Positions 45,239-59,690 of a stretch of DNA of 64,000 bases are shown one piece after another. Origin of the DNA: Mycolicibacterium rufum (lineage in GTDB: Bacteria; Actinomycetota; Actinomycetes; Mycobacteriales; Mycobacteriaceae); assembly GCF_022374875.2 (NCBI RefSeq), contig NZ_CP092427.2, forward strand, positions 2,480,001 to 2,544,000, read 5' to 3'. The position numbers and the translations under genes are program-made. Below the pieces are notes generated by a model. That model did no database searches. It had not been told where the DNA came from and saw nothing but the letters and a program-made list of their open reading frames with translations. Each line of letters opens with the position of its first letter. The stretch's first letter is position 1.

Positions 45239-48081
45239 GCGCCCCGGACACCGGCCGCGCCGGCATCCCCCGCTTCCTGCGTCTTTTCTGCGTGCCGGTC
45301 CTGGTGGGCTGGCTGGCGCTGACCGCGCTCGTCAACGTCGTCGTGCCGCAGTTGGAGGCGGTCGGCGCCGCCAACTCGACGTCGCTGACCCCCAACGATG
45401 CCCCCTCGCTGCAGGCCAGTCAGCTGGTCGGAAAACTGTTCGACGAGTACGACTCCAACAGCTCGGCCATGATCGTGCTCGAGAGCGACACACCCCTGGG
45501 CGCCGAGGCGCACCGCTACTACGACGGACTCGTCGCCGATCTGCGCAAGGACACCACCCACGTCCAGCACATCCAGGACCTCTGGGGCGATCCGCTGACG
45601 TCGTCGGGCTCGCAGTCGGCCGACAACCTGTCGGCCTACGTGCAGCTCTACATCGCCGGCAATCAGGGTGAGACGCTGGCCAACGAATCGGTGGAGGCGA
45701 TCCGCGACATCGTCGCCGCACATCCGCCGCCGTCGGGACTGCGGGTGTACGTCACGGGTGCGGGACCACTGAACTCCGATCAGCAGCACGCCGGCGACAA
45801 GAGCCTGCAGCTGGTGACGGCGCTGACCTTCGTCGTGATCATCACGATGCTGCTGCTGGTCTACCGGTCCGTCGTGACCGTCCTGCTGGTGTTGGTGACG
45901 GTGGTGCTGGAGCTCGCGGTCGCACGCGGTGTCGTCGCGTTCCTCGGCTACCACCACATCATCGAGCTGTCGACGTTCGCGGTGAACCTGTTGACGCTGT
46001 TGGCGATTGCCGCCGCGACTGACTACGCGATCTTCCTCGTCGGCCGCTACCACGAGGCACGCAACGCCGGCGAGGACCGCGAAAGCGCCTTCTACACCAT
46101 GTATCACGGCACGGCGCACGTCATCATGGGGTCCGGGCTGACGATCGCCGGGGCGACCCTGTGCCTGCACTTCACACGGCTGCCGTACTTCCAGACCCTC
46201 GGGATCCCGTTGGCGATCGGCATGTTCGTCGTGACGATGGCGGCGCTGACGCTGGCGCCGGCGATCATCACCATCGCGTCCCGATTCGGTCTGCTGGAGC
46301 CCAAGCGCGGTCAGCGGACCCGGGGTTGGCGCCGGATCGGAACCGCTGTCGTGCGGTGGCCGGGGCCGATCCTGGTGGCGTCGATCGCCGTCACGCTGGT
46401 CGGCCTGCTCGCACTGCCGTCCTACACCACCAGCTACGACGACAAGAAGTACCTGCCCGCCGACGTCGAGGCCAACGTCGGCTATCAGGTTGCCGCCAAA
46501 CATTTTCCGCAGGCACGGCTCAACCCCGAGGTCCTGATGCTGGTTTCCGACCACGACCTGCGCAACTCGACGGACATGCTCGTCGTGGACCGGGTCGCCA
46601 AGAGCGTGTTCCACCTCCCGGGCATCGCCCGGGTGCAGACCATCACCCGGCCACTGGGCACGCCGATCGAAGGCAGTTCGATTCCCTACATCGTGGGCCA
46701 GCAGGGCGTGAACCAGAAGCTCACCCAGTCCTATGCCGAAGCCCGCACGGCCGATCTGCTCAAGCAAGCGTCCGACATCAACGATCAGATCAACGTGCTG
46801 CGTGAGCAGTTGACGCTGCAGAAGCAGAGCGCTGCGGCTCAGCAGGAGCAGACCGATGTGCTGAAGCAGACGGTGGCGGTCACCAACGATCTGCGGGACA
46901 AGATCGCCAACTTCGACGATTTCTTCCGGCCGTTGCGCAACTACTTCTACTGGGAACCGCACTGTTACGACATCCCGGTGTGCTACAGCCTGCGCTCCCT
47001 GTTCGACGCGCTCGACGGCATCGATCAGCTGTCGGGTCTGCTGGCGGAGACCACGATCAGCCTCGACAAGATCAACGCTTTGCAGCCCAAACTGCTGGCA
47101 CTGATTCCCCCGCAGATCGCCAGCCAGGAACGCAACCGCGATCAGATCATGACGAACTACTCGACGCAGAAGGACCAGCAGGATCTGCAGGACCGGCAGC
47201 AGTCGGACCCGAACGCGATCGGCCGGGCCTTCAACGATTCCAAGATCGACGATTCGTTCTACCTGCCGCCCGAGGTCTTCGACAATGCCGATTTCCAGCG
47301 AGGCCTCAAGCAGTTCGTCTCGCCGGACGGAAAAGCGGTGCGTTTCATCATCTCTCACCAGGGTGACCCGGCGACGCCCGAAGGCATCTCGCACATCGAT
47401 CAGATCAAGAACGCCGCGTTCGAGGCGATCAAGGGCACGCCGTTGGAGACCTCGAAGATCTATCTGGGCGGTACCGCGGCGACGTACAAGGACATGCGGG
47501 ACGGGTCCAACTACGACCTCATCATCGCCGCCGTCTCGGCGATCTGCCTGATCTTCATCATCATGCTGATCATCACCAGGGCGGCGATCGCGGCGCTGGT
47601 GATCGTCGGGACGGTGGTGCTGTCGCTCGCCGCGTCGTTCGGGCTGGCGGTTCTGTTGTGGCAGCACGTGATCGGAATCGAACTGCACTGGCTGGTGTTG
47701 GCGATGTCGGTGATCATCCTGCTGGCGGTGGGGTCGGACTACAACCTGCTGCTGGTGTCACGATTCAAGGAGGAACGCGACGCCGGATTGAACACCGGCA
47801 TCATCCGCGCCGTCGCCGGCAGCGGCAGCGTGGTGACCTCGGCGGGGCTGGTGTTCGCCTTCACGATGATGTCGTTCGCGATCAGCGATCTGAAGGTGAT
47901 GGCTCAGGTGGGCACCACGATCGGGCTCGGCCTGCTGGTCGACACCCTGGTGATCCGGTCCTTCATGACGCCGTCGATCGCGGCGCTGATGGGCCGGTGG
48001 TTCTGGTGGCCGCAGATCGTCCGCGCCCGGCCGGCCCGCCGGCCGCGTGCGTCAGCGACGTCAGCAGGTGGTCTCGACTGA
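45235..48081 (+). CDS. MmpL-family RND transporter
   Basis: 948 residues with 12 helices. The proton-relay Asp-Tyr pairs are in TM4 (AATDYAIFLVGRYHEAR) and TM10 (VGSDYNLLLVSRFKEER). The large outer loops include a coiled segment (DINDQINVLREQLTLQKQ) and Cys in HCYDIPVCYS. Size and the MmpS partner fit the MmpL4/5-like branch, some members of which export siderophores, glycolipids or drugs; the cargo here is not known. The C-terminus is short, with no long cytosolic tail as in MmpL3. The last 21 bases overlap the convergent Hsp70-like gene. Confidence 0.95.
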   Translation: MSAPDTGRAGIPRFLRLFCVPVLVGWLALTALVNVVVPQLEAVGAANSTSLTPNDAPSLQASQLVGKLFDEYDSNSSAMIVLESDTPLGAEAHRYYDGLVADLRKDTTHVQHIQDLWGDPLTSSGSQSADNLSAYVQLYIAGNQGETLANESVEAIRDIVAAHPPPSGLRVYVTGAGPLNSDQQHAGDKSLQLVTALTFVVIITMLLLVYRSVVTVLLVLVTVVLELAVARGVVAFLGYHHIIELSTFAVNLLTLLAIAAATDYAIFLVGRYHEARNAGEDRESAFYTMYHGTAHVIMGSGLTIAGATLCLHFTRLPYFQTLGIPLAIGMFVVTMAALTLAPAIITIASRFGLLEPKRGQRTRGWRRIGTAVVRWPGPILVASIAVTLVGLLALPSYTTSYDDKKYLPADVEANVGYQVAAKHFPQARLNPEVLMLVSDHDLRNSTDMLVVDRVAKSVFHLPGIARVQTITRPLGTPIEGSSIPYIVGQQGVNQKLTQSYAEARTADLLKQASDINDQINVLREQLTLQKQSAAAQQEQTDVLKQTVAVTNDLRDKIANFDDFFRPLRNYFYWEPHCYDIPVCYSLRSLFDALDGIDQLSGLLAETTISLDKINALQPKLLALIPPQIASQERNRDQIMTNYSTQKDQQDLQDRQQSDPNAIGRAFNDSKIDDSFYLPPEVFDNADFQRGLKQFVSPDGKAVRFIISHQGDPATPEGISHIDQIKNAAFEAIKGTPLETSKIYLGGTAATYKDMRDGSNYDLIIAAVSAICLIFIIMLIITRAAIAALVIVGTVVLSLAASFGLAVLLWQHVIGIELHWLVLAMSVIILLAVGSDYNLLLVSRFKEERDAGLNTGIIRAVAGSGSVVTSAGLVFAFTMMSFAISDLKVMAQVGTTIGLGLLVDTLVIRSFMTPSIAALMGRWFWWPQIVRARPARRPRASATSAGGLD

Positions 48082-59690: not shown

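Follow-up and report, generated by a model that had tools for sequence, protein, structure and literature searches.

The IniR-iniBAC system and the ini island

Isoniazid and ethambutol induce no other operon as strongly as iniBAC (PMC5760070). IniR, which activates iniBAC and has a MalT-like sensor part, was described together with iniB* by Boot et al. in 2017, and one sentence of that paper remarks that in M. smegmatis iniR has a dnaK-like neighbour (PMC5760070). In this study we analyzed a stretch of 64,000 nucleotides from Mycolicibacterium rufum (contig NZ_CP092427.2, positions 2,480,001 to 2,544,000; hereafter the window), in which the ini genes are accompanied by two genes for Hsp70-like proteins, here called hspA and hspB. 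A conserved hsp70-like gene and a short DNA tag on stress promoters, the two subjects of this report, suggest an overlooked partner of the drug-response system.

The gene order of the known system, iniR and iniB*-iniB-iniA-iniC, was recovered in the window by profile searches, and all seven genes of the island proved open in a reading-frame check. The minus strand carries iniB* (54626..55153; Rv0340 family, 207 bits against a cut-off of 100), iniB (53318..54367; IniB N-terminal model passed), iniA (51394..53223; 609 residues, inferred start MTAPNR at 53223) and iniC (49885..51348), the last two being dynamin-like with Dynamin_N matches over the cut-off. The line ends with hspA (48061..49836, minus strand; 591 residues), 48 nucleotides (nt) past iniC. 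Divergent from this line, hspB (55360..57156, plus strand; 598 residues) lies 8 nt upstream of iniR (57165..59690, plus strand), which encodes an AAA+-type ATPase and LuxR regulator. A preliminary description of this DNA had proposed an iniBAC island with two Hsp70-like genes, a second IniB-N gene and a P-loop LuxR gene, and the open frames and profile matches confirmed it. Two of its names had to be changed: the "MalT-like regulator" is present but is the published IniR (1375 bits with NF038181, which has a cut-off of 750), and what had been called the "second IniB-N protein" is iniB*, likewise published.

The same description had placed the Hsp70-like proteins outside the described ini system. 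This holds for the partnership, of which the search of the open-access literature found no description, but not for the neighbourhood as such, in view of the remark on M. smegmatis (PMC5760070). IniR, iniB* and the iniBAC system are already known, and the dnaK-like neighbour has been glimpsed. The words "hsp70" and "chaperone" do not occur in the main text of PMC5760070, and neither an operator motif, the conservation of the partner, its copy in the iniBAC line nor its lost catalytic residues were found in the accessible part of that paper. A search of the open-access literature, with subscription journals mostly outside it, gave nothing on an hsp70-iniBAC link or an IniR motif beyond the remark; within that literature, the order-wide partnership, the degenerate site, the iniBAC-line copy and the operator candidate are new.

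Hsp70-like genes in line with iniR

The IniR model was searched in 298 genomes of the order, and the best 80 matches outside the own genome were taken, ranks below about 408 bits being left out. The regions were annotated with profiles built from the window proteins. After L120, L129 and L141 had been set aside for contig edges (loci are numbered with L, genomes with G, families with f), there were 77 evaluable loci from four families of the order. All 77 carry iniA and iniC, and 76 carry an IniB-N gene. An hsp70-like gene was found in 76 of the 77 regions, and the remaining locus (L145) has one on the extension of its region (L239), so that all 77 have such a gene nearby. In 70 of the 77 loci the gene shares the strand of iniR and lies directly upstream of it, the distance to the IniR profile match being 7-56 nt in 59 of the 70. 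The whole layout, hsp70-like gene then iniR, divergent from iniB-iniA-iniC, was observed in 69 loci. At L145, iniR is convergent with iniC and the hsp70-like gene is divergent from iniB; L154, whose hsp frame stays open through iniR, was left unscored.

Since the HSP70 profile gives just 4 or 5 matches per genome in the seven genomes searched outside the genus, chance adjacency was taken as negligible. The cut-off of the IniR model was passed by 25 of the 298 genomes, all within the 35 of the same genus, many more having weaker relatives; IniR and IniA are present together in the same 25 of these 35 and absent together from the same 10. These computations show that the hsp70-like gene belongs to the core of the IniR-IniBAC envelope-stress locus and is inherited together with it. 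The co-occurrence of the Hsp70-like proteins with the ini system, noted in a single genome, extends far beyond it.

The Hsp70 catalytic residues are D8, K70, E171, D194, T199 and D201 in DnaK numbering. At these positions hspA and hspB both read S, V, D, D, G and S in the alignment with DnaK, D194 being the sole residue kept by both. None of the 70 members in line with iniR has K70. D8 is kept in 29 of 63 (the other seven have a gap there), E171 in 14, D194 in 25, T199 in 12 and D201 in 13 of the 70, and no member keeps more than four of the six. The losses vary by lineage; in most of f15, D194 is replaced by A and E171 by R, while the adenosine-side GG motif is retained. All six residues were kept in 15 of 15 controls, namely 7 DnaK and 8 other Hsp70-family proteins from seven of the same genomes. 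A degenerate Hsp70-like protein of Mycobacteriaceae off the iniR locus (L227) and a weak match with K70 and D201 lost (L231, 26.9 bits) were left out of the controls, and L210-L213 and L229 are second matches of control proteins already counted. These facts suggest that the Hsp70-like proteins in line with iniR have lost the residues that hydrolyse ATP in DnaK, and the ATP-burning machinery appears to be gone. The idea that hspA and hspB are a pair of active Hsp70 ATPases was rejected on these substitutions, set against the intact controls. Of the "membrane-anchored Hsp70-like ATPases" of the preliminary description, one helix and a low-complexity tail stood in both window proteins; an active ATPase was not supported, with catalytic residues lost in 70 of 70 in-line members.

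Like DnaK, hspA and hspB have an Hsp70-family nucleotide-binding domain, although a degenerate one, by hidden Markov model (Pfam HSP70, PF00012, cut-off 20.6; 55.7 and 71.9 bits, respectively), and the phosphate and adenosine loops remain recognisable in the hsp70-like proteins. Unlike DnaK, they gave no match to the substrate-binding domain of Hsp70 chaperones. The best stretch of the HSP70 match stops at profile position 372 of 599, and the remainder consists of the helix and the tail. A single hydrophobic helix, preceded by basic or aromatic residues, lies near residues 380-400 in hspA and 440-460 in hspB. The tail is Pro/Ala-rich in hspA and Thr/Pro-rich in hspB, with 39-50% Thr in hspB within the genus. 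By a hydropathy test the helix was found in 22 of 22 members of f1, 3 of 3 of f16, 7 of 19 of f14 and 0 of 26 of f15, the family labels having been transferred by hand into the locus script. Helix and tail were consequently rejected as the defining feature of these proteins. Membrane anchoring may be old and lost in some families.

In a FastTree of 127 domains, thinned by hand from 166, hspA of the iniBAC line and hspC, the copy behind iniR in other fast growers, form one clade (support 86). The hspB proteins, orphans and convergent copies fall in another (95), and most copies of other genera and families lie outside; many forks are weak. Each of the 25 genus genomes with IniR has at least one further hsp70-like gene away from the ini locus. 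In the own genome an orphan paralogue lies near 2.627 Mb of C1 (L194:8227-10035), with no TTAGGGG in the 19.5 kb read. No neighbour context common to the orphans L194, L198 and L199 was seen by eye, L198 and L199 sharing some neighbours. Two further arrangements were noted, an additional hsp70-like gene between iniA and iniC (L018:6498-7682) and a tandem pair of hsp70-like genes behind iniR (L025:10007-12951).

A direct repeat before the ini genes

Four copies of TTAGGGGA lie in the window where 0.18 would be expected, all on the plus strand and confined to two ini intergenic regions; the whole genome has seven. Two candidate IniR boxes are formed in this way. At 54512..54527 (plus strand) two copies abut with a spacing of 8, 144 nt before iniB, and at 55241..55263 (plus strand) two copies stand with a spacing of 15, upstream of iniB* by 87 nt and of hspB by 96 nt. 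The tandem TTAGGGGA-N0-10-TTAGGGG was found 35 times in 19 of the 35 genus genomes, including the own genome, whose two tandems were placed by window coordinates; a control with the reversed pattern gave 2. No exact tandem was found in the 10 IniR-less genomes of the genus. The 35 tandems lie before iniB (16), iniB* (10), hspC (5) and remote IniB-N genes (4). The script gave each box to whichever gene of the opposite strand was closest, hence to iniB* over hspB; nine of the ten iniB* tandems are in the intergenic region common to divergent hspB and one is in that common to iniR. The coding strand at iniB, iniB*, hspC and the remote genes carries TCCCCTAA. Counted from start to start, the two copies are 8 nt apart at iniB and at the remote genes, 14 nt at hspC and 15 nt at iniB*.

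The remote IniB-N genes behind a tandem TTAGGGGA box are L232:2284-3345, L234:2327-3439, L233:3618-6602 and L235:747-3488, two of them open frames of more than 900 codons. At f1 loci many rows show a further degenerate half-site, CTAGGGG, about 17-18 nt past the last TTAGGGG in the hspB-iniB* intergenic region. The repeat scan of viral contigs comprised 16 stretches.

Order-wide, the most frequent 7-mer in the hsp-iniB intergenic regions, taken with 40 nt on each side, is TTAGGGG: it is present in 65 of 69, whereas shuffled sequences gave a mean of 1.28 and a maximum of 4. Its orientation there is in the sense of iniR in 106 cases and opposite in 1. The regions at L111, L121, L164 and L165 have no TTAGGGG, and in f27 TTAGGGGA is present at L240, L241 and L257 only with one mismatch. 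The LuxR recognition helix of IniR differs little between families in the rows displayed. On this co-occurrence, the TTAGGGGA direct repeat is a candidate operator, most likely that of IniR. It has a GGGGA core in common with the MalT box of Escherichia coli, 5'-GGGGA(T/G)GAGG, which is likewise a repeated element (PMC7567727), and both regulators are of the MalT type. MalT systems differ from IniR in inducer and targets, and the Actinoplanes motif is a palindrome, TCATCC-5nt-GGATGA (PMC7567727).

The orientation of the box points to iniB* and iniB rather than to hspB-iniR. An IniR peak in chromatin immunoprecipitation (ChIP) lies directly upstream of iniBAC, and iniR itself is not drug-induced in M. 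tuberculosis (PMC5760070); both fit the direction of the box. The element predicts shared induction for hspA, through the iniBAC line, and for hspC, through its own copy. Because the box points away from hspB-iniR and iniR is uninduced in M. tuberculosis, uniform induction of the seven genes is not predicted.

Possible role of the Hsp70-like partner

Outside the hsp-iniR line, 15 Hsp70-like proteins stand beside dynamin genes at 12 loci, two of which (L239 and L256) lie inside the order, and all 15, six from a first set of regions and nine from a second, keep the six catalytic residues. L252, a degenerate hsp70-like gene beside iniB at a contig end with its iniR on another contig (L120), was excluded from these 15. 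The loci L244, L245, L250, L251 and L256 have the Hsp70-like gene and no IniR in the stretch read. Among six intact relatives examined, the helix is clear in five and weaker in the sixth (L242). One of the two Hsp70-like proteins of L243 (L243:5437-7899) has a beta-propeller of the Vgb/YncE type C-terminal to the helix, and that at L251:13612-16209 has WD40 repeats in its C-terminal part. A DnaK-rooted quick tree took 14 of the 15 intact proteins; ten group with 28 degenerate ones (Shimodaira-Hasegawa-like approximate likelihood ratio test, 95), three fall with other Hsp70s and one is unplaced, and a single degenerate clade has a support of 35. In the simplest reading, the catalytic site of an intact dynamin-linked Hsp70-like protein would have decayed during or following its association with iniR, once or several times. 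The split between degenerate and intact proteins offers a natural contrast for an Hsp70 fold turning regulator. GrpE was considered as a neighbour of the intact relatives and rejected, the genes between the Hsp70-like and dynamin genes in L244 and L245 being unlike GrpE by eye; that of L244 has no Pfam match.

We propose, with about even confidence, that the Hsp70-like protein in line with iniR may be a regulatory pseudo-ATPase scaffold that couples the state of the envelope to IniR. A regulatory partner is favoured over a chaperone because the gene is in line with iniR, the ATPase site is lost and a further copy appears to be IniR-controlled. The degenerate protein might still be able to bind ATP and would restrain or license IniR. 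In mycobacteria, holding or licensing IniR would fall to the inner domain and reporting the envelope state to the Thr/Pro-rich outer tail; in families without the helix the protein would act on IniR in the cytosol. In fast growers the in-line hspB and an IniR-controlled copy, hspA or hspC, could form a feedback pair, the logic of which is comparable to that of DnaK with HspR or of MalK/MalY with MalT. In the DnaK-HspR feedback of actinomycetes, an Hsp70 is the co-factor of a regulator encoded beside DnaK; HspR represses, and DnaK is active as a chaperone. IniR, in contrast, activates, and its hsp70-like partner is degenerate. The candidate operator and the pseudo-ATPase partner bear on how the wall signal reaches IniR, on the DNA target of IniR and on the partners of IniB, IniA and IniC.

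Several observations weigh against this proposal. The mycobacterial loci L101 and L104-L107 have no hsp70-like gene at iniR; in these five it sits past iniC, convergent, and a partner adjacent to IniR is therefore not required. Because the helix is absent from 26 of 26 f15 and 12 of 19 f14 members, membrane sensing cannot be universal. The residue loss rests on alignment, and the position of Lys70 is within a shortened region. The exact tandem is absent from 6 of the 25 genomes with IniR and is off-locus only in two more (G007 and G142). IniR is functional in M. marinum and M. tuberculosis, for neither of which the accessible text of PMC5760070 names a dnaK-like gene. In addition, hsp70-like genes are present in all 35 genus genomes; they persist in each of the 10 without IniR, with at least one match over 240 bits, some at the apparent old ini place. 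In G043, which has neither IniR nor IniA, two of them (L197:5885-12489) immediately precede the FeS gene that is the neighbour of iniR in other genomes, and a weak IniR match of 31 bits lies upstream; in G109 and G199, also without IniR, the distance of one such gene to a DnaK match is 7-11 kb. The genes of these three genomes look like remnants of the ini locus and speak against a strict dependence on IniR.

The persistence without IniR would also suit the main alternative, which we consider rather unlikely: the Hsp70-like protein would be a membrane partner of IniB and the two dynamins, such as a scaffold for their assembly, and the link to iniR would be one of co-expression only. This would explain why dynamin pairs of other layouts have an intact Hsp70-like neighbour, at five loci with no IniR in the stretch read, why two of these neighbours bear a propeller or WD40 repeats, and why hspA is within the iniBAC line. 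In 70 of the 77 loci of the order, however, the gene lies in line with iniR and not with the dynamins, and it has lost its catalytic residues. At six of the 15 dynamin loci in the second set of regions (L246-L249, L253 and L255) the stretch read shows no Hsp70-like gene, and L254, close to the end of its contig, has a true DnaK only. A wider account is possible but tentative. Membrane-anchored Hsp70-like proteins would partner paired dynamins and IniB across actinomycetes, with a full ATPase site and perhaps an outer propeller outside the hsp-iniR line; once joined to iniR, the protein would have become a pseudo-ATPase sensor or brake, later duplicated with one copy under IniR control. On this account, a chaperone would have turned receptor within the stress response to isoniazid/ethambutol.

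FtsA and MreB are actin-fold, membrane-associated nucleotide binders. An actin-like filament or anchor of this kind, positioning IniB and the dynamins, would need no more than nucleotide binding without fast turnover, and hspA does pass the MreB Pfam cut-off weakly (30 bits against 27), while one relative (P0055) is named FtsA by a source. HSP70, however, outscores MreB in both window proteins (hspB reaches 23.1 bits with MreB, below the cut-off), the sequences of hspA and hspB are nearer Hsp70, and the 60 solved-structure matches listed are Hsp70-family or heat-shock proteins by name, bar a few with uninformative names; we regard a filament as quite improbable. To much the same degree we doubt that the repeat belongs to another regulator, such as HpoR, or to a sigma-factor element, which would leave the hsp70-like genes outside the IniR regulon. 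The assignment of the repeat to IniR rests on co-occurrence, further regulators of iniBAC have been reported, with HpoR as a repressor (PMC13413693), and the M. tuberculosis iniR mutant changed iniBAC alone (PMC5760070), whereas a box before iniB* predicts a change of iniB* too. The element is a direct repeat, however, and the site described for HpoR is a palindrome (PMC13413693); the tandem is missing from the IniR-less genus genomes, TTAGGGG does not occur in the stretches of 11 dynamin loci where IniR has no strong match (L244-L251, L253, L255 and L256), and the ChIP peak of IniR speaks for IniR itself. The loss of catalytic residues, which varies with lineage, might finally suggest decaying relics of an old chaperone gene, kept as passive neighbours by chance or by a shared promoter architecture. 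This is very improbable in view of the open frames, glycine motif and neighbourhood kept order-wide, the further copies with their own box, and the 11 invariant and many near-invariant positions across 44 hsp70-like sequences.

Some minor features complete the description. The source genome is a complete Mycolicibacterium-like genome of 6.1 Mb in 3 contigs, rated 100% complete, and the closest match of the hspA protein is from M. chlorophenolicum (86%). The true dnaK of the window lies at 34187-36046 (minus strand), about 12 kb before the ini island. In other genomes, iniA of L107 (L107:10942-12811) and hspC of L090 (L090:13542-15324) each seem to be split over two frames. At the end of hspA an MMPL-family transporter gene (45217-48081 of the window) is convergent with it and overlaps it by 21 nt.

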